DNA from: Owenia fusiformis
Taxonomy: Eukaryota > Annelida > Polychaeta > Sabellida > Oweniidae
Assembly (NCBI GenBank): GCA_903813345.2
Contig: CAIIXF020000012.1
Coordinates: 16,238,020-16,302,019, forward strand
Direction of reading: 5' to 3'
DNA length: 64,000 bases
The position numbers and the translations under genes were made by a program. Positions 16,801-64,000 of the stretch are shown piece after piece; the first letter of the stretch is position 1; each line of letters opens with the position of its first letter. The notes under the pieces are model-generated. The model searched no databases. It was not told the origin of the DNA and was given only the letters and a program-made list of their open reading frames with translations.

Positions 16801-19800
16801 TCTTGTATTGGATAGATGATATTTTCTTTTACTGGACATATCTTAATTAATTAAGGGTAATATGAAAATACGCAGAACCACTGGATATTCAAGTTTTAGG
16901 GAACTTTCTAATACCATGCCATGTTTTCTGCCCTGAATTAGCTACCTGGTTGTGAAGCTGGCAAACGTACTCGCCTCTTGGTTATTGAAATTGTCACACA
17001 TGTGATGATAAATACATTTTATATGGTGTGCATTTGAATGTCATATTGCATCTGACATCCGAAGATTTTTAACTAGTAGCCCTCATTATGTAACTCCATA
17101 TATTTTTATGTAAAAGTACAAGTATGTATGGTTCAAAAGCTCGCCTATTTTCAAAATGGCCGCCATTTTTGTCTTGCAAAATTCACTTTTGAGCCATTTC
17201 CTAGCTTTACAAATAATCTCAGGTGTCCTGCATTGTAAAAATCCATGTCAATGTAAAGAGTATTTGTATGAAATAAATTTGTTATAAAAAAATCAGCAAA
17301 AAATTACATCCATTTTTTTTTATTTTCAGCCATTTTAGTTAACATTGATTTGTCCATCTGTCTCGCGAAATCCACTTTTCCGTCAACAATAGTGGCACAT
17401 TTTAAAACTTCTGTCGGTAGGGTTTCTGTTTTAAGTTATTTCTGTTCAACATATAATACAGAAAATTCCCCTATGACTCCTGGTTCAAAAGCTCGCCTAT
17501 TTTCAAAATGGCTGCCATTTTTGTCTCGCGAAATTCACTTTTGACCCATTTCCTAGCTTTACAAATAATTTCAGGTGTCCTGCATTGTAAAAATCCATGT
17601 CAATGTAAAGAGTAGTTGTATGAAATAATTTTGTTACAAAAAGCAGCAAAAAATTATATCTATTTTTTTATTTTCAGCCATTTTAGTTAACATTAATTTG
17701 TCCTGTCTGGCGAAATCCACTTTTGGACCATTTGCCTTAAAAATCTGTTAATAGGATTCCTGTTTTAAGTTATTCTTGTTCAACATCAATACAAAAAACT
17801 CCTGTATGACTCCTGGTTCAAAAGCTCGCCTATTTTCAAAATGGCCGCCATTTTTGTTCTGCAAAATTCACTCTTGGCCCATTTCCTAGCTTTACATATA
17901 ATTTCAGGTGTTGATCCTGCATTGTAAAAAACCATGTCACTAAAGAATAGTTGTATGTAATAATTTTGTTACAAAAAATCGGCAAAAAAAATCATATCTC
18001 TTTTTTTATTTTCAGCCATTTTAGTGGACATTAATTTGTCCATCTGTCTCTTAGTCAGTCCAAAATAGTGGCAAGTTTTAAAACCTTTGTTTGTCAATAC
18101 TTGGCTCTTTTTAAATCCTCTGTGTAGATAGGATTCCCGTTTTAAAATATTTTTGTTCAACATCAATAAAGAAAAAAATGTGACTCCTGCTTCAAAAGCT
18201 TGCCTATTTTCAAAATGGCCACCATTTTTGTCTCGGGAAATTCACTTTTGTTCAGGTGTCCTGCATTGTAAAAAGCAACACCATGTGAGCCCAGTACCCA
18301 CGGTACTATTTTTCTATATATTGTGAAGCTACGGCAACCTTACAGCTGCGGTAGAGCCAATGTGACCGAGGCTTATCAGGGTGTCATGATTATTAAGCCC
18401 AAATTACCTAATTATTTTCATTTGACACATGCCTTTAGAATAGTCATTATGATTTTAATCTTTAGTCAAAATACTTTGAAGTTTAAATCTCTTAAACAAA
18501 CATACTAATATGTGATCTACTGGTAATTAATTTATAATGTTTTTATAATGTTTTTACAGCTTTCTGTTGTTTTGAAAGGTCAACTAATATGAATGGTAAC
18601 CTTATACCCTAAGGCAAATTTCCTGTATCTGTGTGCAGCTCATCTCAACCTGCAAATATGAGAACTCATATTAAGAAATTGAAAGTGATATTTTCCTTTA
18701 TTACAACGCTTTTCATAATACTTACAATTTATTTTGTTTATTGTATGATTACTATGTTTGATGCGACTGCATTCATTGAAAAATATAGCACCAAAGAAGA
18801 ACTTAATGAATTCTGCACAGCAATGGACAATGAGACCAATAGAAAATTTGATAGTGTTTTTAAACATGGGATACTAACACAAGAAAACCAAGTAGACCAT
18901 TCTTACTCAAAAATAAAAGTTTCACCGGACAAAAGCAAACAAAAACCAGTAACAGTAAGTCATTTTACCTACAGGATATTTACAAAAACTGACAAAGAAA
19001 TTCAAAATTCAAATTTTTATAAAGACCTCGAAAGGTGTCTTGGGGCAGTGAAAGGGAAAACTGTACATACGATAGCTCTAACACGGGATTATATCATGGC
19101 ATTCCTGAACTGGTTAATTGTCGCCCAATTTTTCACAACTCCACCAATTAACAACATTCTCATAGTAACCACAGATTGTTATGTTTACACTTTTCTTGTG
19201 AAGAAAGGAATCCCGGTTGTTTTTCTACACGTATATGATATTTTGATATATCCATTCACGCCCCGCAAAGTGAGAAAAGTGGGAAAGCAAACACACTGGA
19301 TCGTGAGACTTCACACATGGAGAATTATTAACATTTTGGGATACAACGTAATGTCATATGACTTAGACTCACTACCTCTGCGTAACCCAGAGATTTTATT
19401 TGAGGAGTATCCCGACGCAGATATTATCGGTCAAGCTGTTGGAAATTATCCTCATCAAGTACGGGATGCCTGGATGTTCTTTACACTCAACATGGGTACG
19501 ATCTTCATCAGAAATACACCTGGAACAGGTAATATTACATTAATAACTGAAAATTTCCTCTTTTCTAACCTTAAATAACTTAGTTTACGAGATCATAGCT
19601 TTCGTATGCAACTGGCTAACTGGGTTGTTTAGAACTAACAGATAAATATCTCTGGCACTAATATTACATTGAATAAAATTTTACGAATATTTAGTCTTGA
19701 CTAATAGCACACATATATAATATATACCAAAAAATCATTTATATTTTCTCTATAGTGTTCAAAATCAAAAGTGAAAATTGTATGATAAATATATAGATGT

Positions 19801-39888: not shown

Positions 39889-41869
39889 TCAACCCCAATC
39901 TGATCCTTTAGTTCGGCGTAATATTTGCTTAGATGGGGGTATGAGGGATGGAGGAAGGTTTGGTATATTTGCCAATGCTTCTGGTAGTGTTGTTTTCTCT
40001 TCATCTGCTGTTGTTTTATCACTATCATCCCCCTTTTTCAATCTATTGTTTCGTTTTTCAAGCCATTCATCAATGTTAGCATCTGGTAGTGGAGCATTAT
40101 CTTCTAACCTTTTCTTGTTCTGAGCAACAACTTAAACAAACACATCTGAGTGATTAGGATTTACAAGAAAACACATGAGGCAATTTCAGATAATAAAACG
40201 ACTCCCAAAGTTATTTATCTATAATCAATTGTAATTTAAATCAAATCGCATAAATCGACTGTGTACACTGATTGGGATATGACCATTCGAAATATACAAG
40301 TGCAAAAAATTGACAATCAGTATGGACATGAACTAGATTTCTATAACCTGTACTGGGCTGTACATCATCTAAATGAAGAAAGAGCCTGAAATGTCCCTCA
40401 TAATGAATGCCAATATATTTCAGAGTGTACAATGACTTTTTGCTACTTCTATCAAACAGATGGTGATCACTGATCTATTTCTATTGTAACACAAAAACAA
40501 AAAATAATTCATCAAAATCTTTTTTATGAGAATCTATTTGAATCGAAACATTCGAGCAAAAATCAATAATTGATATAAACATTCATGGAGATAATTTTTA
40601 ATGTACTTTCAAAATAATACACTAGCACGAAATAGTTACAGAGTACCATTTCAAAGAAATCTATCAACTTACTCAGATTTTCTAGCTGTTGTTTCCTGTC
40701 TGGTGTAAGGTGCGAAAACCTGCAGTGATCTCCAAACTCACATTCTTCTGGAAGGTAAAAGTATGAAATTGTCAAGGAGATCTTATTTTAATCTGAATAG
40801 GAAAAATCACCGAAGAATAAGGTCAATCACCCATTGTACTGAACACGGTTTATTTACAATTGTATAAAGGGATATTGGTGGTGTATTTTATTTTAAATTA
40901 GTTCCAGATGAAAATCGAAGAATAAGGCAATTGACTCATCAAGGATAATATATTGTAATAACACTGATATCAATGTTTATTGTCAACTTTTTGGAATTTG
41001 AAAAGGGAGATCAGCCACTTTTAAAAAATTTCCTCCAAAAAACAAAAAGCTTGATCTACTTTTGACTGTGTTGTTCATCATATTTCAAAATCAATCTGAA
41101 ATGGTATATGGAAATCTTACCCCCTACTTGTATTTTCCTACAAGGCTTCTTGCTTAGTTGCTCGGTGAGAATCACTGATGGATCTGTAAGTAGAATACTA
41201 AGATAACAACATGATAATTGTCAAGCTTGCAATTACATGATGTTTGTAAGACAAAGGAAAATTCCCACCAGTCAAAATGGTGTCGCGTGACATGATAGAT
41301 CAGGCAATATTTGCTGCTATATCCCAAGCATTTATAATTCCTCCACTCGTGCATATGATCATGGGCTTTCAACTAGAATTGAAAGCCCATGATATGATGT
41401 AAACCTGAAGGGCTGGTGGAATAACACCCTAAGCAACAGATATTCAGTAACACTTAAAATATTTGTACATTAAATATAACCATGGATAAAAACGCATGTA
41501 TTTAGGCCTAATGTACATAATCATGGACTTGGAAATAAGTCAGAGGTTTCACTAGAATTTCTCACAACAGGCTAAATAAATGTAAACAAAAGGCAAAATT
41601 AATGGAAATCATAAATTTAACATGGAAAAATTGAAAAGTCTCTAAAAACAACAGGCGATTTTGTGAAAACAACTTTTGAAAATCGCCTGTTGCCTGCTGC
41701 TAATGAAACCCCTGTCTTCCAATTTATTGAATTGAAACCTACCTTTGAATGTATTATAATGTTCTTGTCTAAGCTTTTGATGCAGGAATCCCTTTGCATG
41801 ATTTTTTCTGTTAGTCAGGTTTCCAGCAAAGCTCTTATCACATAGCTCACAGTAGTATCTTTTGCCCAT
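39889..41869 (-). CDS. ZMAT5: Zinc finger matrin-type protein 5 (U11/U12 snRNP 20K), complete
   Basis: Minor-spliceosome protein of the U11/U12 di-snRNP. Four exons (minus): 41743-41869, 41121-41183, 40673-40747, 39889-40130, with consistent phases; 168 residues, against 170 in human. The protein begins MGKRYYCELCDKSF, an N-terminal matrin/U1C-type C2H2 finger (C7, C10, H24, H30), continues with a CCCH finger (C57-x8-C66-x5-C72-x3-H76, ending HCRFSH), and has a C-terminal IDEWLEKR motif and a Pro-rich LPPSLIPP tail, all in the order of the vertebrate protein. The ATG gives the canonical MGKR start. It is divergent from UQCR10. AATAAA at 39673-39678 (minus) is a likely poly(A) signal. A 5' non-coding exon further right is possible. 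Confidence 0.95.
41544..41711. mobile_element. Short MITE-like element, copy 2 (ZMAT5 intron 1)
   Basis: Reverse-oriented relative of 3383-3528: GGTTTCACTAGAATTTCTCA at one end and GCAGCAGGCAACAGGCGATT (read on minus) at the other. It ends about 30 bp from the donor of ZMAT5 exon 1. Confidence 0.65.
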
Positions 41870-41954
41870 CCTTAATCTCAAATGATGAATAATATTCAAA
41901 TTAATTTTGATAACAACTATGTTAAGCCAACAACAAGCCACAGGGTGAACAGAA

Positions 41955-42862
41955 TTGCACCCTTGAACAAAATACACTTTTCGGAATGAAAAATTCAAAA
42001 TGGCCACCTTAACATTTACCCAGACTGCCTAAAAACTAATCATTTCTAAACTTTCCATCGAAACATCTCTAAAATTTTAGGATGAATCCATGAAACCTGT
42101 AAACAACCCTCAAGAGACAAGCTTTAAGGTATTACTTCACAGTGTATCAGCTTTTTTCTACAACTCAGATTTTCCTGAAAAAAATCCTGGTAAAAGATAT
42201 ACTGATGTATTACAAAATATGTGAAAATTGGAAAGATTGACCGTTTAGTTATTTCTAAAAAAATGTTTTAATTTAACATTGCTCTCAATGGGAAATTCTT
42301 TTTTATTTTTTAAAACAAGCCTTCACAGACACGATTTTAGGACGAAAAATCCCAAATGGCCGCCTTAACATTTACCAAGAATGCCGAAAAACTAATCAGT
42401 TCTAAACTTTTATAGGTAGAAACATCCCTGGGAATTTCAAATGAATCCCTCAAACGGTTTGGCTGGAAACCTGTAGACAAGCCTTGACAGACAAGATTTT
42501 AGGATGGAAAATCCAAAATGGCCGTCTTAACATTTATCCAGAATGTCGAAAAACTAATCAGTACTTTCATAGATAGAAACATCCCTGAGAATTTCAAATG
42601 AATCCCTCAAATGGTTTGGCTGGAAACCTGTAGACAAGCCTTGACAGACAAGATTTTAGGACGGAAAATCCAAAATGGCCGCCTTAACATTTACCCAGAA
42701 TGCCGAAAAACTAATCAGTTCTAAACTTTCATAGGCAGAAACATTCCTGAGAATTTCAAATGAATCCCTGAAACAGTTTGGCTGGAAACCTGCAGACAAG
42801 ATTATTCGGGACTCCCGCCTGCCCGCCCAACTAATTACAATATAGCACCTTAGGGTGCGATA
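41955..42862. mobile_element. Element related to 7079-8427, with terminal hairpin
   Basis: About five tandem units of about 160 bp with GACAAGATTTTAGGACGGAA, CCAAAATGGCCGCCTTAACA and AACTAATCAGTTCTAAAC, homologous to the body of the PRODH2 intron 2 element. The right end has a C-rich tract (CCCGCCTGCCCGCCC) then the hairpin GCACCTTAGGGTGC. It lies in the spacer between ZMAT5 and UQCR10. The left boundary is approximate. Confidence 0.7.
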
Positions 42863-53615: not shown

Positions 53616-56600
53616 TTAAGAAGTTGGCAAACTTATTACCATCCCATCACCCATGTCCATAGAATTATCTGAAGAGTAGTGTATCAGCTTAAGATATGAG
53701 CATTCCAGAATGAAGTTCTCCAGAGTAAACTCAACTGAGTCAGCTTCAATAACTCTCTTCAGGCCTTTTATGACAGGGTTGGAGTATAACTCCTGAAGTG
53801 TGACACATCCACCATTGGTGCTCTGTATCATGGAGTGAACAGCTTCATATAGATAGCTCAATGGGGGCTGGAACGTAGCTTGCTGGTGTTCAGTAGAAAA
53901 GCCTTCTACAAGTCCATACAGGATCAAATCTTGATGCTGCCTGGTTAGAAACATGGGCATCTTCAGAACTAGATTTTTCAGGCTATGGCCAGGTAGAGTT
54001 TGAAGAATTCTTTTTACTGATGGGAATTCAGCAACTGTGTTTAGGACAAGCATTTCATCAGGAGGACATTCTACAATGTATTTTAACAATGTGTTCTGAA
54101 GTTCCTCTATGTTATCTGAGGTAGGAAGATTGTCATTGCTTTTTGTAACATGTTGGTCCCTGATTTGTCCCTTTGGAACTTTTGGTTCTGGAACTTTTGG
54201 TTTTGTTTCAATATCCATAAGACCCATTTCATTCAGAAGTTTCTTAAATGTGTCAAAAAGGGCATCTTTTAATACCTTTTTGCCTTTCCCAGGGAAAAGT
54301 TCCTGTATTCTTTGATCTTTAAAAACCTTCTGAATATATATTCGACCTTGTGTTTCTTTTCTTAAATCAGCTATAGCATCTCTTAAAGCCTTCTTGATGA
54401 CGCTTACATCAATTCCCAAAATTGTTGCAGAAGACTCCTTTGTGTTACTTGCCTTTGGGAGTTCTGCAACTGAATCATTTGAGTTTCTCTGTAGCTTTTG
54501 TGCATCATTGGTCATTATTTCATTTGGAGTTGCAGTTGTTCCAAGTGAACATTTCTGCACTTGACTAGACTCTACACTTTCAATCATACCGGTTGTATTT
54601 GCCGGTGTCATGGTTTCTTCTTTGCCTGTCATTCCTTCAACTGAACATCTGGCTCCACTTTGGTTATCCTTTTGTGATATCAGTTGAATGTGCATTATTC
54701 CATCATAATCAATCCCAAGGTTGAAAATGTGTGAATGCCTCTCCAGAAAATCTTTCCAGCTAAAACTATAGCCACAGCTCTTACCAACATTGCTCAATTT
54801 GTGCAATAAATCTAGCACACCTGGAATTATTGATATTGAGCCAACTCCTGCTTTTTGATCTGCACACTCTGACAGTTTTGTATATATGAAAAGAAGCAAG
54901 TCCTTTTCTAATTGTTGAACCTCTGCTTGTGCAGCTTCTGTTACATCCTCACTTGGACTAATTTCTTTGGAACTTGATGTTTTCTTTACAGGGTTTGCCT
55001 TTATATCATCTGATAATTCATGTGTTATAGGCTTAGGACATTTAGGTATGGGTTCAGTATCCATTAGGCCCAGTTCAGTCAGAAGGTCTCTGAATATGCT
55101 CCATAATAGATCTCTCAATACTTTTATAGGTTTTCCAGGAAAAAGTGCTTCCATCCTTTTGTCTTTAAGAACTTTTTCAATGTTAATGAAACCTTTCTTT
55201 TGTTTTCTCATATCAGTCATTACATCTCCCATGGTCTTCTTAATGAAACATGCATCAATTCCTTCGATCATTGAGGTTTGTTTAAGTGTGTTTGGTTTTG
55301 AGGGTTCTGCAACTGAATCATTGGTATCATTTGGAGTTGTAGGTGACTTGCTTGATGTTGTTTCACAGTTATCAGATACAGAAGCTATTTCATCTCGGAC
55401 TGACAAAAATACTGGCTTCAAGGAGTCGCGGATTGCTTTGACATTTGGATTTTCAAAAAGGTTTGTTATTCGCCTATCACGAATGGCTTTTGAAAGATGA
55501 ACAACAGAATCTGGTTTTTCTCTACTCATATCAGTTATGACATCTCTAATAGTCTCCCTGATTTCACTTTCATCAACTCCTTGAATCAAAACAAGAGACT
55601 GATCTAACACAGATGGTTCCATAGTAACATGTCCAGAAGCGCTTGGTGTCTTGTCAACAATATCAATTCCACGTTCTTGTTGGATTTTGATGACAGAGTC
55701 TGTTATATCTTTGTATTTTTGTAGTTGAGCCCTACGTCTCTCATCTTTTCTTATATCTGACAGTAAACCCAATTCAGATCGAATCTTTTCAAATGTATTC
55801 CATAAAGACCAATGCAGCTGCTCTGGATCTTTACCAGGAAAAATCGCTTTTACTCTTACATCTCTAATGACATTCATGAGACTGATTTCATTTTGATCTG
55901 GTTTTGTTATCATATCAGTCATGACCTTCCTTACAATTTTCTCAACAACACCTCTATTAACACCTTCAATCGTAGCCGAAAGAGTCATCTGAGAAGTTGC
56001 AGTTTCATTCAGGTAAATGTATGCAGCACCATAATTATTTTTCAAACTAAATATGTGCAAGTGTCTCACCAGAAAATCACTCCAACTAAATACATAGTCA
56101 CAGGTCTCACCAATTTCGTTCATCTTTGGGATAGAATTATACACATCAGGTATACATGGTATATTTTCAAAAAGTGTTTTCTGATCAACAGCTTCAAGAA
56201 GGAACTGGAATATCACAGCAAGAAGTTCCCTTTCATGTTGTTCAATTGTTTGCTGTGCTTTTTCCCTCATTCCGCTGTATTTCTTTTGTGGCTCCTGAAT
56301 CATTGTTTCACATTTCTTAGTTATGATCAGTTTGTCTTGCTCACCAAAATCCTCAATATTTGGTCCAGCTTTTTCTATTGCAGCTGCAGCTGCATATGAA
56401 TTGTGGTGTATTTTGTCTGAAGATTTAGTACTTTTCACTGAAGTACTTTTCACTGAAGGTTGAGCCTTTTCTACTGTCTTGACAACTTTCTGACCATGTT
56501 CAACACTTTGTTTATTTTCTTTCAATGATGTTTTATCCTTTGCTTTTGGTTGTTGCAAATCAGGGTACACAAGTGTCACACAATCTTCATCTTTACATTG

Positions 56601-59600
56601 TGATGGGACCATCCTAAAAAGTTTAGAATGTTTGTTTAAAAATGTCCTCAATTTGAATGGCTCAGGTAAACTGTACTTCTTCCTTTCTTTTATAACTGGA
56701 GCAACTGTAGATACCTGGCAAAGTTTTGACATTGTAATGTATCCAAATGGACTTGATTCTATAGCTTTGGTGATTTGTGTACACAGTTGTTTCTCAAGTT
56801 TTATTGAAGCTTGGGGAACGTTTCGGGAATCATTTGATACAAGAGTGCTTGTCTCTCTAACTTTGAGGCTTTTTGTATGCTTCTCAAGTTTAGATGAGGC
56901 CTTTGAGTCTTGGTGATAAACATTAGATTTCAGGTAAACAAACTCCCATCCACAACCAGATTTCAGAGACTTTATCTCAAATAAATTTGGATATTGCTCA
57001 AGAAACAGCTTTGGCTGGAATGCTTCCTCACATGTAACTCTTTTTTTCTTTAAAACTGCAATAGATTCAATGGTAAACAACTGGGACATTCGCATGCTAT
57101 GGTTGCTAGTTTCTTGCAATGCTTTACATATCTCATCACACATTTGTTTCTCTATCTGAACTGCTTTTGATTTACCTTCAGGAACTACAGACCCTGATTT
57201 AAGACTTTTCCCCACTGGCTTTATATGTGTTTTTGTTGTTGGAATTATATCACTTGTCTCGGAAATAAGTGAGATATAATCATGACCATACTCGTCTGAG
57301 GTCAACATAAACACATTTGGATAACTTTCAATGAAAGATTTTGGCTTGAAGGGTTCTGGACATGATTTCCTTTTCTTTTTGAGTAAATCTATACCTGGGA
57401 TCTGGAATACTGTTGTCATCATCAATTCTTGTTCTGGTGCTAGCTTTAGTGCACCAATAATGTCATTGCACATTTGTTGTTCAAGTTGAAGAGCTTTCGA
57501 TACCATGTTGTTCTCATCTGCTCGACTTTTAGCTTTCACAATATCACCAGTATGCTTTGATTCTACTTTGGTCTCTTTATCTGGGTGTATAGTTTCAACT
57601 TCTGGTTTAGAATTTTCTTTGTATTTCCCCCGTAGTTTTATATCCAGTTTGTTTTGTTGCTCTTTAAGAGACACTTTCACAGTTGTATCAGCACTGGTTT
57701 CACTCCGTAAACCTACACAATCGGTCAAGCCAACCGTTTTCAAAACAAACATACTAGAATATTTTTGGATGAAAGATTTTGCTTTGAATGGTTCTGGATA
57801 TTCCTGTCTTCTTTTCTTCAACTCGTTTATCGATGGATCATCAAATATATGTGTCAGTGCCATTCTATTGTTTGGACACTGCTTTAAGGCACCGTGTATT
57901 AAGTTACACAATTGTTGCTCTATTTGTAAGGCCTTGTTTTCATCATTTTGCATTTTGTGTTTAGATGTTTCTTTCTCTGTGGTAAGATTTGAGATACTCT
58001 TGGCCTTTATCGGTGATAAGCTAAGTGGATCTTCTACACATTGGTCACTGCCATGTTCTTTGTCTTTGGTTACTATTTTCTGTTCTGCCAAACTCAAATC
58101 TTCATGTGATACACCTTTAAGGTTATTCCTTCTCTCTCTTTGCTTCATCCGCCTTTTTGCACTTCTTGTTAAATCCTGGGCTTGATCAGAAAATCCTTCA
58201 GATTCATCAGTTTCTCCTTTGACATCAATTGTAGTGTTTGCTTTAACAACATCGGTAGTTTCTATTGGTATTGCATCAGGACTATCCTCTAAACTATGTT
58301 CACTATTATTTCCCTTTCTATTAAATTCTATTTTATGTTCGGATTTCAGAACAATTGTTGTATCACTGTCAATTTGGATAATTTCAAACAACGAAGGAAA
58401 TTTCTGGATGAAACTCTTTGGTTTTAACTTCTTCACTGTTGCAAACCTCAATTTCAATGACTGGATATCTTGAGACTTGAAAACAGATCCCAAAGGCATT
58501 CTTTGTTCTGGACAGCTCTCCAAGATTTTACAAATACAGTCACACATTTTCTGTTCAATTTGCAAAAATTCTTCAGACTGATCCAATTGACTTGATGACT
58601 CATTTATCATATCAATTTGAGGTTTGACATCTTCACTAATAGCTTCTGCTAATTTGGTCTTTGACTCCTGACTAAATGTGTTTCCAACATTAGGCTCTTG
58701 ACTGCCAGAGCCTTCAGCTATAACCAAACTCAAATCTTCATGTGATGAAACATTTTGATTGTTTTTCTTTTTTTGGCCTCCCCTTTGCCTCCTCCTCTTA
58801 TGTGCTTTTGTATCCTGCGATCCATCAGACTGAGTGCTTTCCTCAACCTCATCATGTTCAACTTTGATAACTTCTTCATCATCAGATTTCATATCCACAC
58901 AAGAAGAAGGTTTCACAGGTTGACCTGGATCCTGAGACTTGTGAAAGGTTGAATTGAAACGTTGATCCATGGCTTGGTCAGTTTCATCATTGTCACAAAC
59001 AATGTACCTTGTTGATTCTACAAGGCAGTTGCACATTGGTGATTTCTCTGCTTTCTCAACACTCTTGACATAGGCATATCTCTGTGTAGCAACTTGGCAA
59101 AAAGCATCTCTGTGTCTACTGAAAAAGCTGTGCCAGGTGAACCCAAACTCATCACAAACGGACATTCTCTCCTCCACTAGTTTTGTTAGTTTTTCTCTGC
59201 CTATGATTTCAAATGGTTCAGTGAGGAGTAAATAATTTCCTTTACTCAGCTTTTGTATTTCTATACAAATATCCATTTCTATCAGTCTGTAAAGGTTTAC
59301 ATCTGATGTTTCAGTTGTTGGTTCACTTAGAGGTGTCTTGATTGATTTGTCAAATATTGATTTCAAACCATACACTTTTTCTGAACTAGATACACCAGGT
59401 ATGTAAATAGGGCTGAATATATCAGGATGCCTTTTCAACACAGCTTCCAACACTTGTTTGGAAGTCTGACCACTGAGGTTGAAATCCTGCATTGCATATA
59501 TTACTCCAGCCTCACTGTCGAACTCATTTATTGTTTTAAAGTCTTTGTCAGATGATCTCAGAAATGCCTCACAGGCATCAACAATACGCTGCTCTACTTC

Positions 59601-62600
59601 TGCATCTATCTTTGGTGTCTCACACTTGCCCGTGTGGCATTTAATAAACATCTTGCCATTCAGAGTTTTACATACTGATAGGGCTTCAGAGTTCCTAATG
59701 AGGAAGTTATTCCAAGTAAAGTCAGTTGCAACACTGCTATACTGTAGACGTTTCTTGACAAGCTTTTTCAAATTTTTTGTAGCATCAACTTTTTCCTTTG
59801 GGCTCAGACCTGAAAGAAGCATGTAGTCATCTTTTAGTGCTACTGCCAACAAACGGATCTTTTCACACATTTCCATTTCAATCTTAAGTACTTCTTCAGG
59901 CATCTGTCTGCATTGATTGACATCTTCATCATCAAGTTCAGATCCATTCCTGAATTTATGAACAAGCCCATACAAATCTCCTATCTTTAGACTTTTGAAG
60001 AGTTTAACAGGGCAGAATATCTCAGGATGTTTATCAAGTACTTCTCTAAGTAATTTTTTTGCACTTGTTTTGTCAATATCGGCCAAAGTGTTACCCCGCA
60101 TATCCTTGAAGATGTCACCGAAACTCATGTATTCTTCTTTATTCGACTTGAGGCACTTAATACAGGCTTTAATGAGATTTTCATCAGGGGGTTCAGTTTC
60201 ATCATAATATCTCTCAACTATGACATCATCGTTTATGTTTGCATCATTTGTGGTGCCTACTAAAACTCTATCTGGATCAGGCCCAAGGGTAAGAATCCAA
60301 TCTTCAAGGTTAAAACTTTTCTCCACAGTCCATATGTGTTGGTTTTCTTCAATGAATTGTTCCATGGTTATTTCAATCTCAGTCAGAATATTATTTAGTT
60401 GAGAATTTTCCATGATTTCATCAACTTTCACCTTTGTAGCTTTCTGTATTGATGTGCAGATATCCTTTCTCAGCTCAATAACAGCAAAGTTAAATTGCCA
60501 AGGTAAGTTCTGACATTCAGCATCAACACTCAAAGGGGGATGCAAAACACTCAACTCTGGATGACCTTCCTCAAGTTCACAGTCGAGATCATCTTCATAA
60601 CAAGTCAAGAAAACTGACCAGTCAATTTTATCTCCATTCAGAATTTCTGCAGTTTCTACTAAGACTGCCATCCTTTCTTCCTTCAGAATCACCTCCAGGA
60701 AGCTGTTTGTTCCCTTGTTCACGAGGATATGCTGAATCATTAGCTGCATCTCATCCTCAATGGAAATCAGCTTCTGTTTGGCCTTTACTTGAAGCATAAT
60801 GCCCTCATGAGATTTTGTGATGTTGTATTCATGTTGGAACAACTTCATGTAGTCCCTCCATGAGAACTGCCATTCAACCTGCAGTTGCTGCATCCCATGA
60901 CTCAAACCTTTGTCTTTTTGTATAACAGACATGGCTGCCGTGCCATTGTTTTGAATAAACATGTCAACCCGTTGTTTGAAGTCCTCTACATCCATTCTGA
61001 ATACACGTTCATCAGCATCAGTATCTGAAGTACTTGTATCAGATTCATCATCATCATCTGCTAACTCAGCAAGTGCATCCAACTTCTCTTTGGTGACTTT
61101 GCCACTCTGAAGCTTCAGTTCTCTCTCGACTGTTGCATCATCTAGTAAGTCCATTCTGTAGGGATGCAAGAAATTGAACCCTCTAGGATTATCATTTTGT
61201 GAGTCATCCATAGCATTGCTTTCATCTATTTCTAGTTCATTGTTCTCTGAACTATCTCTGAAGCCATCTATGACAATGGTCGTCCCTTTTTTCTTTTTCC
61301 CACTTTTAGTTTTGACATTGTTTGCCTCATTTGTGGAACTGTCCTCATCATCTAAAGTGTTGTTGTTACCTTGACTGCACTCAGCTCCCTTAGGTTGACT
61401 AGAAGTTGCAGCTTGACTAGCACTTGGTTTCTTTGCTTCCCTCAGAAGTTTGTGCAGTATAATACAAGCTTTGTTGCCTGGTATGATCTCATCAGAGATA
61501 CTCCAATCCACCCTATACACCTTATTCACCTCAGCTCTGAGATCATTAATCAATGATAACAGTTTCATCGTCAGAGGAAACTCTTCAGTGAATTTGAATT
61601 CATACCTGAAGGTAGTCACAGAGGTGATCCTCCTGTTAAGGGAATCAATATTGAACTTCATCCCATGGAAGTCAGGTTGAAAAGCAAGGATGAAGACAAT
61701 CGCTATGAGGTTGTTGGAGTCATTAGGGAAGACAGATAAACCATCTACCCAAGCACGTTTACTTCCACAGGCTACATAATTGTACACCACCCCAAGGTAG
61801 TTCTTCTCTTCAGTGTCACATGCAAATCCAATCGGATCCTTCCAGCTTGGCACAGCCTTAAATCCAGAATCTCTGGTCCTCAGACCCTTTCCTCCCGCAC
61901 TCAATAGGTTCCACTTCAGTTGGTATGGTGATTCAGGTTTAGACAGGATCACTACGTCCTCTGGTATATTGAACCTTTTCTTAGTATGCTCACTTATCTG
62001 GATAGAAAATGTATTCTTATCCTCACTAAATTTGAACAGCATGTGCGCTTCACTAGGGATATCATTTTGAATTACCTTTTTCTTTTGTTGTGTCCTCTTA
62101 CTTGGTATAACATAAGTGGTTGGTTCCTTGTTTTGTGGAATGCTTTTTCCATGTTCAACAACAATACAATTGCCTTCTGCAACAGCTACATTTGTAGCAC
62201 GTGTAATCCCACAAATAACTGTTTTTATGACTTCACTTGGACTTTCAATGAACCAATCTGGTACATCTTTCATAACAACAGTTGTTTTGGAGTCACATCC
62301 ACTTTTATTGACCTTTTCCTTAAGGTGCTTTCTTTTCTTTTCATCCTTACTGCTTAATCCCTTGACAGACCCCATCACATAAGCTGGATTAAGAGCAGCC
62401 GCTAATGCTGCATTCAAAATACAGATGTCCTCGCAGAACAGCATGTCAAAGGTCAAAGGGTTTTCATCTACATGGTGCCATCTTTTATCTGTATCCTCTG
62501 GCTCCAAAATCCTACCATGTTTGTTCCACTTTTTACCATGTGCCTGGCTTTGCTGAAATAGAATGAGCTTTCGCCTCATGTCAGAATGTGGGGACAACAT

Positions 62601-64000
62601 GGTCTTAACATTCTTTGTGAGATCTTTGACCAGATTCTCAAAGACATTCAACCTCGATTGACTGACAGCATTTTCATGACAAAATTTCTTTTTCACATCA
62701 AGAACCGACCACCTTACTCTACCTCTTGCTTCACTGGCAAGATCAGCTACTGACACCATTTTGTATTTTACAAACCTCAACCATTGCACATATAGATTGC
62801 GAAACATGATTGGTATACTGTAATTACCATCGTCCCAGTGAGATCGGGCATGGGTGCTACGATTCAGTGATTCTACAAATTTAGAGTCAATTTTTTGCAC
62901 CTTTTTTGTTGGCATGTTGAACGGATCCTTGCACTGCAGGGCAGCTGCCATGATTATGGTATCACAGGGGCATCCGAAGAGGACGCCATATAGGATAAGC
63001 CTGCACAGGACAATGTCTACAGGAATCCTCATACACACATTGCCCAGAAGGGTGACGTGGGAATTCTCGTCATTCTCTGCAAATAGAGGAAATATGAGAT
63101 TGTTTAAAAAGGCAATTCTGAATAAAATGGACTTAGTAACTGTACTAGTTACTGCAATTCACAGATTTAATTAACTGATTACATGTAATTCTTTAATTAC
63201 TATACTTGCTAAAGATTATCTAGAATGTCCCGAGTCTAAAATTGACCTTTCACTGCCTTCTTGTGATACATGATAAATATCTCAGAACAATTAGAAAGTT
63301 GTATTCAACCTTAATCATTTCTGGTAGGCTTAATCCTTTATAACTGTTTCTGGTAAACTTAATGATTTTTTTTATTCTTTGTTCGTCAAAATATGACAAT
63401 AGAACTTTCAGTGTGTAAGTATTAAATATGCTTGCTTTTTCCATTCAATTCCAGAATTAGAGAACATAACTTTTTCACATATGTCTTACCTTCAAGTGCT
63501 CCTACATCATGTAGCATCTGTACTGCACTCTTGATGCTGTGTACTGGAGGAGGTTCAACAGATTTTAACAGGATCTCTGTAGGCGAAGCTCCTGGCAATA
63601 TCTTGTTCCCTAAATTTAAATGATCTAGGTTTCAAGTAAAGCTATTGGCAAAAATGGATAAAACTAAGACCAGCCATATTGTTCGTTAAGAAGTGAGTCT
63701 CCTGGCAAAATCTGACTTCTGGATAAGATAATCATTTATATTAGCTATTGTAGAAACTATGATGACCACGAGGGCATAGCTGAATCTTTTTCCTTTGGTA
63801 AAGTTATTATTATCTGTTTAATGCAGCTGAATACTCATCTAAATTATCTAATTTTGGCATCATAATTTATTAATAATGTAACAAGAAAGCAAGGAATTCC
63901 TCTCAAGTGGAAATGTCTTGAATCTCAGTTAACAACACTTCTCACAAAACATACCGATGAATTTGATCTCCAGAACAAGCTTATCAAGCGGGGCAATCTG
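53616..64000 (-). CDS. DEAH-box RNA helicase with giant terminal exon of repeated winged-helix-like modules (5' end missing)
   Basis: Three exons with matched phases (minus): at least 63955-64000, 63490-63609, and 53616-63076 (9,461 bp, 3,152 residues to TAA). The first two read IAPLDKLVLEIKFIGNKILP and VEPPPVHSIKSAVQMLHDVG, then ENDENSHVTLLG, the end of the helicase core and HA2 start of DEAH/RHA enzymes; IPVDIVLCRLILYGVLFGC and IIMAAALQCKDPF continue HA2. The motor motifs lie right of the window. Numbering from 63038, residues 200-520 are unassigned, 540-680 are acidic/basic linker, 680-1326 hold about seven degenerate winged-helix-like modules, 1492-2157 five clearer ones (FKPKSFIESYPNVF type), 2356-2943 four copies of a second repeat, and 2975-3138 two final modules. 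No stop or frameshift interrupts it. The helicase assignment is firm; the LOTUS-like label is inference. It may act on RNA in germ granules or defence, which is speculation. Confidence 0.85.
54210..55973 (-). other. Second repeat type, four copies of about 70 residues
   Basis: At residues about 2356-2428, 2484-2554, 2590-2660 and 2872-2943: I-x-G-[VI]-D start, a helix like IKKTMGDVMTDMRKQ, then KVLKDKRMEALFPGK and a last helix ending ELGLMD. Between the third and fourth copies lies a FSWKDFLERHSHIF-type winged-helix-like module that also precedes the first copy (FSWSDFLVRHLHIF). Predicted all-helical; family unknown to me. Confidence 0.7.
56568..58565 (-). other. Five-module repeat block within the helicase exon
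   Basis: Residues about 1492-2157 (numbered from 63038) contain five modules of about 75 residues separated by Lys/Ser-rich linkers. Shared pattern: a helix like IEQQLCNLIHGALK, a hydrophobic turn ending LKKKR, the strongest motif PFKPKSFIESYPNVF, then a short V-x-L strand pair. This order resembles LOTUS/OST-HTH winged helices. The clearer conservation suggests more recent duplication than in the block at 59061-61001. Confidence 0.7.
59061..61001 (-). other. Older, diverged module block within the helicase exon
   Basis: Residues about 680-1326 hold about seven modules with weaker similarity; two alternating endings recur, KKLLREVLDKHPEIFCP/KQVLEAVLKRHPDIFSP and FTWNNFLIRNSEALSV/FTWHSFFSRHRDAFCQ, suggesting duplication of a two-module unit. 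Confidence 0.6.

Follow-up and report, generated by a model that had tools for sequence, protein, structure and literature searches.

Gene architecture at the locus

We analysed a window of 64,000 nucleotides from the annelid Owenia fusiformis (C12:16238020–16302019, in an assembly of 498 Mb and 525 contigs), which holds part of a minus-strand gene that may encode, on one chain, an XPG/FEN1-like nuclease half, a complete DExH helicase and a long array of winged-helix modules. The gene overruns the window, and 20 kb upstream were added; coordinates above 64000 extend the window numbering into loci fetched beyond it. An open frame of 3,180 codons (63158–53616) becomes a large last exon of 9,461 bases once the splice acceptor at 63076 is applied. 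The original prediction, made from the letters of the window, had placed the exon at exactly 63076–53616, and acceptor and open frame agree with it. The gene continues past the window end to extended coordinate 81151 (C12:16319170). A hand-built model comprises 19 exons and 18 introns, all GT-AG, and reads as a single frame of 4,314 codons with no internal stop, which corresponds to a protein of 4,314 residues and about 489 kDa. The splice sites were hand-picked among scored candidates, with phase and a paralog on contig C8 as guides.

A complete DExH helicase

Nine exons from 69279 downward, together with the start of the large exon, encode a full DExH helicase. The motifs GETGCGKST, PRRIAA, DEVH, SAT, ATNVAES and QRKGRTGR are all seen, and RecA1, RecA2 and HA2 follow each other in the order and with the main motifs of a DExH (DEAH/RHA) RNA helicase. 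Pfam searches of the assembled helicase return DEAD (E=1.2e-10), Helicase_C (1.5e-11) and HA2_C (3.6e-4). HA2 is divided by the junction between the large exon and its upstream neighbour: HA2_C scores 18.3 bits on the large exon alone (E=0.0035; cut-off 21.3) and rises above the cut-off, to 21.4 bits, with the upstream exons joined. The prediction that the exon holds a helicase C terminus was therefore right as to the end of HA2, whereas the helicase core sits in the nine upstream exons, mostly past the window end.

The comparison with TDRD9/Spindle-E gives mixed results. Among PDB sequences Spindle-E (9nhs, residues 593–677) is the best match of the large exon (E=1.2e-5), but DHX29 (1.3e-84) and DHX36 (2.8e-79) outscore Spindle-E (7e-76) once the core is included, and Pfam finds no Tudor domain in the large exon at E<=1. 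Judged by sequence, the helicase core is DHX29/DHX36/Spindle-E-like.

A tandem repeat with a 105-bp unit in 7.9 copies (99 percent matches) occupies extended positions 67433–68262 (C12; L001:3433–4262). Its unit contains the end of the SAT-motif helicase exon with its splice donor, and this exon end seems to have been amplified into the intron as a minisatellite. Two more local duplications, 74 and 79 percent identical, lie in or beside helicase exons at extended 65728–65461 and 66498–66314 (L001 1728–1461 and 2498–2314).

An array of two module types

A post-helicase stretch of about 590 residues separates HA2 from the first module, and the array behind it covers about 2,460 residues. It is long and lies within one exon, as predicted, but falls short of the 3,000 residues first proposed. 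By sequence, 10 A-like modules are firm and their number may reach 14, and four modules belong to a second type, B. The modules were assessed by a leave-one-out profile test, in which each stretch was compared with 500 shuffles of its own letters, and by a stricter test against the top score that 200 shuffles of the whole unassigned sequence gave at any position. All eight type A modules picked by eye beat all 500 shuffles (17.3–76.7 bits), as did all four type B modules (49.0–83.3 bits) and six of eight weaker A-like stretches (8.0–17.2 bits); residues 775–860 (41/500 shuffles as good) and 1155–1250 (53/500) failed. In the stricter test of the six weaker stretches, those starting at 1266 and 716 pass outright, those at 968, 2992 and 3078 pass at the 95 percent level, and 869–927 fails. 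Seven of the type A copies are 17–49 percent identical to the eighth. The original prediction gave about 14 degenerate copies of one module; the array has two module types, with four copies of type B.

No second array was detected. Across 4,825 frames from the window and loci L001–L014 (L015 excluded), the A and B profiles have no significant match outside the array, the top scores being 7.9 bits (E 1.3) for A and 6.4 bits (E 2.5) for B. When pieces of the array serve as protein queries against the genome, only the array comes back (9, 4 and 2 candidates scored), although weak copies may escape such searches. A locus on C11 was rejected as a second array because it encodes a PARP12-like CCCH protein (C11:14519371; L014:4799 onward, plus strand). 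This protein carries an N-terminal sub-cut-off WH_Egal match (E=0.0011), which hints that a wider class of such modules may occur in RNA-binding proteins.

Fold of the modules

AlphaFold2 models were obtained for two pairs of modules. Model 1 (residues 2270–2445; alignment of the window's own modules) has a pLDDT of 92.4 and a pTM of 0.59, and shows module A as a winged helix with the order H-e-H-H-H-E-E and module B as four helices without a wing. Model 2 (residues 1155–1345; pLDDT 80.8, pTM 0.49) contains two winged helices, one of them residues 1155–1250, which fold in this way despite the failed sequence test. The three modelled winged helices share the H-e-H-H-H-E-E arrangement, with the second helix absent in one. 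In VIA-align searches the LOTUS domain of MARF1 (5yad) ranks first for module A (Z 8.3, 72 aligned residues, 2.6 Å), and the TDRD5 LOTUS domain (3s93) follows with Z 7.6 (75 aligned, 2.5 Å); generic winged helices lie within 1 Z of the MARF1 domain, a bacterial regulator reaching Z 8.1. The top-ranked structure for model 2 is 2od5, an uncharacterised nucleic-acid-binding protein (Z 9.0, 81 aligned, 3.2 Å), and the Z-alpha domain of PKZ scores Z 8.1 (63 aligned, 1.6 Å). No row named LOTUS occurs among the 50 structural matches listed for this model. The tandem LOTUS-like domains of Egalitarian (9rvy_C) align across both of its modules at rank 18 (Z 7.6, 144 aligned, 13.2 Å). Bacterial regulator, forkhead, Z-alpha and Stn1 rows were taken to reflect the common winged-helix arrangement.

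In contrast to the fold, the LOTUS family profile gives no match. PF12872 is absent from the Pfam results of the large exon at E<=1 and of six single modules at E<=10, and a genome search at E<=10 does not list it at the array, versus eight over-cut-off sites elsewhere in the genome, although weak matches may escape that search. Over the whole exon, the strongest Pfam match is WH_Egal (PF23713), at 23.2 bits against a cut-off of 27 (E=1e-4), with no single stretch passing; the genome search with PF23713 lists C5 and C11, not the array locus. The A and B profiles find nothing convincing among PDB sequences (best E 4.5 and 0.15). PORR, TPPII_C, HAD_2, TPR_6 and Orbi_NS1 matches in six single modules, and an Octopine_DH match in the large exon, were set aside as chance. 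At the level of the predicted fold, the modules resemble LOTUS/Egalitarian winged helices without matching PF12872. The structural check came out in favour of winged helices, with MARF1 LOTUS first for one module and generic winged helices tied with it among the top structural neighbours; LOTUS is a candidate identity for the modules. The broader proposal, a DEAH/RHA-type helicase with its own long winged-helix array, is supported by motifs, repeats and models.

An Egalitarian-like gene lies at C5:27702701–27708478 (L009, minus strand); of its five WH_Egal matches, three exceed the cut-off, the best at 1.5e-18.

The nuclease half

Upstream of the helicase, nine exons (81151–69651) encode 619 residues that start with MGVRGLL. 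A profile of three paralogous N-terminal exons (from C12, C8 and C1) matches Exonuclease 1 at E=0.0035 over the whole sequence (0.05 for the best stretch alone); this stretch brings the EAD and DSD sites into register, and MGI-GLL at the start is aligned separately at 1.4 bits. D38, D99, E174, D196 and D198 are invariant in all three paralogs, and LTGSDF is common to C12 and C8. The MG-GLL start and the conserved acidic residues therefore occur in the order seen in XPG/FEN1 (Rad2) nucleases. XPG_I remains below its curated Pfam cut-off in the longer C12 and C8 proteins (E=0.0077 and 0.047; 17.1 vs 24.9 bits), and the C1 N-terminal exon has a weak 5_3_exonuc_N match (E=0.052). RAG1 rows in the nuclease-profile search (E 0.22–1.7) were set aside, and one scan of viral contigs returned no relative of this half. 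The nuclease half appears XPG/FEN1-like with its acidic residues kept, and its length and layout, a PIN domain plus a long C-terminal half, indicate that it is probably of the Mkt1/ASTE1/FAM120 kind. Such a nuclease half shifts the likely function from a scaffold to a nuclease-helicase.

Paralogs of the two halves

Each half has relatives elsewhere in the genome. Around neither the C8 gene (nuclease half) nor the C7 gene (helicase) does the fetched DNA contain the other half, and a third XPG-like paralog lies on C1. A weak nuclease-half match at C7 (E=0.057) was rejected; the upstream neighbour there is AAA-ATPase-like by eye. The gene following the C8 paralog resembles an RRM protein by eye.

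The C7 gene is the closest helicase paralog by identity, which is 62–65 percent in the Walker A exon and about 50 percent in HA2; a single-frame helicase at C12:1.66 Mb is more distant and outscores it on single pieces. Splice phases of the model and of the top-scored C7 candidates agree at 11 of 18 introns, the other seven being different or ambiguous. Since the C7 gene seems to hold introns within the region that is one exon in the C12 gene, the comparison suggests that the C12 gene may have lost its 3' introns.

The large single-frame DEAH helicase gene at C12:1.66 Mb (L015:3158–10000, minus strand) is RING-IBR-type ubiquitin ligase-like by eye and carries degenerate SNQGSVHDRAY repeats at its N terminus. 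Within the window, a plus-strand gene at 18613–19578 matches Nucleotid_trans (PF03407, E=4.2e-10), and a short minus-strand frame at 41642–42028 contains a U1-type zinc finger (PF06220, E=5.9e-5). The coordinates of the exons, modules and XPG-like paralogs are summarized in Table 1.

Table 1. Features of the C12 gene in window coordinates, and the XPG-like paralogs.
Feature	Position	Strand	Evidence
Large last exon: HA2 end, post-helicase region, module array, stop codon 53618–53616	53616..63076	-	open frame with AG acceptor, joined in phase 1 to the upstream exon
Upstream helicase exon, HA2 start	63490..63609	-	GT-AG, phase 1 both sides
Piece of helicase exon 64092–63955; motif VI QRKG/RTGR spans its acceptor	63955..64000	-	exon model
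Post-helicase region, partly common to C7 helicase paralog	61398..62900	-	paralog comparison
A-like module, residues 690–770	60768..61010	-	13.7 bits, 0/500 shuffles; above all 200 in stricter test
A-like module, weakest, residues 858–940	60258..60506	-	8.2 bits, 0/500; stricter test not passed (2.6 bits)
A-like module (sub-type C), residues 956–1050	59928..60212	-	11.9 bits, 0/500; stricter: above 95 percent of nulls
A module, residues 1064–1148	59634..59888	-	leave-one-out 17.3 bits, 0/500
Winged helix of sub-type C, residues 1155–1250	59328..59615	-	model H-e-H-H-H-E-E; sequence test failed (53/500)
A module, residues 1255–1345	59043..59315	-	17.2 bits, 0/500; above all 200; modelled
A module, residues 1505–1579	58341..58565	-	leave-one-out 50.3 bits
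A module, residues 1717–1792	57702..57929	-	68.5 bits
A module, residues 1863–1939, PFKPKSFIESYPNVF	57261..57491	-	76.7 bits
A module, residues 1973–2051	56925..57161	-	72.5 bits
A module, residues 2092–2171, best stretch of sub-cut-off WH_Egal match	56565..56804	-	41.1 bits
A module, residues 2278–2358, modelled	56004..56246	-	31.9 bits
B module (four helices), residues 2370–2441, modelled	55755..55970	-	57.1 bits
B module, residues 2498–2569	55371..55586	-	49.0 bits
B module, residues 2604–2674	55056..55268	-	83.3 bits
A module, residues 2720–2801	54675..54920	-	45.7 bits
B module, residues 2886–2956	54210..54422	-	76.7 bits
A-like module, weak, residues 2985–3062	53892..54125	-	8.2 bits, 0/500; stricter: above 95 percent of nulls
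A-like module, weak, residues 3066–3150	53628..53882	-	8.0 bits, 0/500; stricter: above 95 percent of nulls
XPG-like gene	C8:29186054 (L003–L005)	-	helicase absent at E<4.0 from the 30 kb fetched
XPG-like gene	C1:35611453 (L006–L008)	+	helicase absent at E<4.0 from the 30 kb fetched

Relation to known proteins

The nearest described architecture is that of MARF1 (Limkain b1), in which an active NYN nuclease is joined to two RRM and eight LOTUS domains and degrades target mRNAs, the role of the LOTUS array being called elusive (PMC6294520). The C12 protein shares with it a nuclease and a long LOTUS-like array on one chain. In contrast, MARF1 as described there has no helicase, and its nuclease is NYN rather than XPG-like (PMC6294520). 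The C12 model includes a helicase, its nuclease half matches Exonuclease 1 and XPG_I and no NYN family, and its array is longer, has a second module type and lacks a PF12872 match. TDRD5, TDRD7 and Oskar proteins define the LOTUS/OST-HTH family, with no helicase fusion in the consulted parts of that account (PMC2848206); the C12 modules resemble them in predicted fold, whereas their family profile has no match in the array. Egalitarian has tandem LOTUS-like winged helices that touch adjacent minor grooves of RNA stem loops, and as described comprises three such domains with an exonuclease-homology domain (PMC13186709), in contrast to the some 10–15 winged helices and the helicase of the C12 gene; the C12 exon resembles it by its sub-cut-off WH_Egal match. 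The Mkt1/ASTE1/FAM120 class resembles the nuclease half in its layout, an XPG-like PIN domain followed by a long C-terminal half (PMC12345631), and the C8 paralog stands alone. Unlike that class, the C12 model is fused to a helicase; membership is inferred, the sequence matches being weak.

DHX29/DHX36 and Spindle-E/TDRD9 have the same DExH core and HA2, to which the C12 protein adds the array and the nuclease half. Dicer likewise carries helicase, nuclease and RNA-binding parts on one chain, but its nuclease and RNA-binding folds are unrelated to those of the C12 model and its helicase belongs to another class. The combination of nuclease, helicase and array was not found in searches of open-licence papers, judged by titles and the starts of abstracts, and may exist elsewhere. 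Its parts are of known kinds, newly combined, with no new kind of fold as far as tested.

Proposed function and alternatives

We propose that a single gene encodes a giant RNA-surveillance enzyme, composed of an XPG/FEN1-superfamily nuclease half, a complete DExH helicase, 10–15 LOTUS/Egalitarian-like winged helices and four four-helix modules; we give this proposal a probability of about 0.45. The array would bind structured or double-stranded RNA multivalently, the helicase would remodel or thread the captured RNA, and the nuclease would cut it. Recognition, unwinding and cutting would then be united in a single chain, as they are in Dicer, and the array would do the targeting, as in MARF1. 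That the protein binds RNA, has nuclease activity and serves transposon control or antiviral defence is inferred from what is known of the families.

Whether the two halves form one gene depends on a single junction. The stand-alone C8 gene aligns over all nine nuclease exons with the same eight intron phases, an agreement that is partly by choice since the splice sites were hand-picked with this paralog as a guide. Its last exon (exon 9) closes with a stop codon, whereas the matching place in C12 is a phase-1 donor, T/GTGAGT, which scores 9.0 on a simple in-house scale and is the best of its exon. The first helicase exon offers three phase-1 acceptors, at 69279 (modelled; intron of 371 bp), 69273 and 69222, and has no in-frame ATG ahead of PDELPIM; the C7 paralog reads PGELSIM there, and the PDELPIM methionine is therefore unlikely to be a start. 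These splice signals and paralogs argue, at about two chances in three, that nuclease and helicase are halves of one gene. It is also possible, if doubtful, that two adjacent same-strand genes lie here, a nuclease gene followed, about 290 bp past its stop, by a separately promoted helicase-array gene, whose product would be an RNA-granule remodeller without a nuclease. The C8 and C7 paralogs, each standing without the other half, favour such an arrangement, and several observations weigh against our proposal in the same direction: the unspliced nuclease exon reaches a stop 28 codons past the donor, inside the intron, with AATAAA just downstream, so that a nuclease-only transcript possibly also exists; and the modelled acceptor 69279 is outscored by 69235 (phase 0), 69222 and 69273, the phase-0 site scoring level with the best phase-1 candidate. 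Results on the parts themselves also count against our proposal. Searched alone, the N-terminal nuclease exon of C12 finds nothing in the PDB at E<=10, Pfam likewise returns nothing at E<=10 for it or for its C8 counterpart, and a genome search with PF12813 does not list the C12 locus. Model 1 has no Foldseek match at E<=0.001 (MARF1 LOTUS: probability 0.96, E=0.17), and the modules are not uniformly basic, net charge being negative in 9 of 20 stretches, which suggests that some modules may bind protein instead. An artefact of the gene model, with the array part of another gene and the exon not translated whole, is very improbable, given that HA2, at one end, and the modules, along the remainder, share a single 3,180-codon frame, and that HA2 is split over the upstream exon junction.

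Other functions can be imagined for the same parts. The original prediction suggested, as speculation, a self-scaffolding RNA-granule or defence protein. In the scaffold reading the array would recruit other helicases or Tudor-type partners and condense, and any nuclease half would be inactive. This idea, which is compatible with two genes, draws on the binding of Vasa by the LOTUS domains of TDRD5/7 and Oskar (PMC6294520), on FAM120A as a reported stress-granule protein (PMC12345631), and on linkers made up of 36.6 percent S/T/P/N/Q and 2 percent aromatics; we regard it as unlikely, as the nuclease half keeps its acidic residues. Less probable still is a transport or localisation factor, in which the array would read mRNA stem loops as Egalitarian does while the helicase remodels the cargo ribonucleoprotein. 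The span of the tandem Egalitarian domains over both modules of model 2, albeit at a large rmsd, and the rank of WH_Egal as the exon's best Pfam match, albeit sub-cut-off, point that way, but the exon has no exonuclease domain (Pfam, E<=1) and a separate Egalitarian-like gene exists on C5.

Implications

Animal RNA-granule and small-RNA systems mostly spread nuclease, helicase and LOTUS-type readers over several proteins. Since both halves have paralogs in this genome, the C12 gene is a clean candidate for gene fusion, and we tentatively suggest that it could be a new one-chain RNA-processing enzyme fused from separate genes, a Dicer- or MARF1-like effector against structured transposon or viral RNA. 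If so, the presence of nuclease, helicase and reader in one protein would allow their cooperation, and the role of long LOTUS-like arrays, to be tested.

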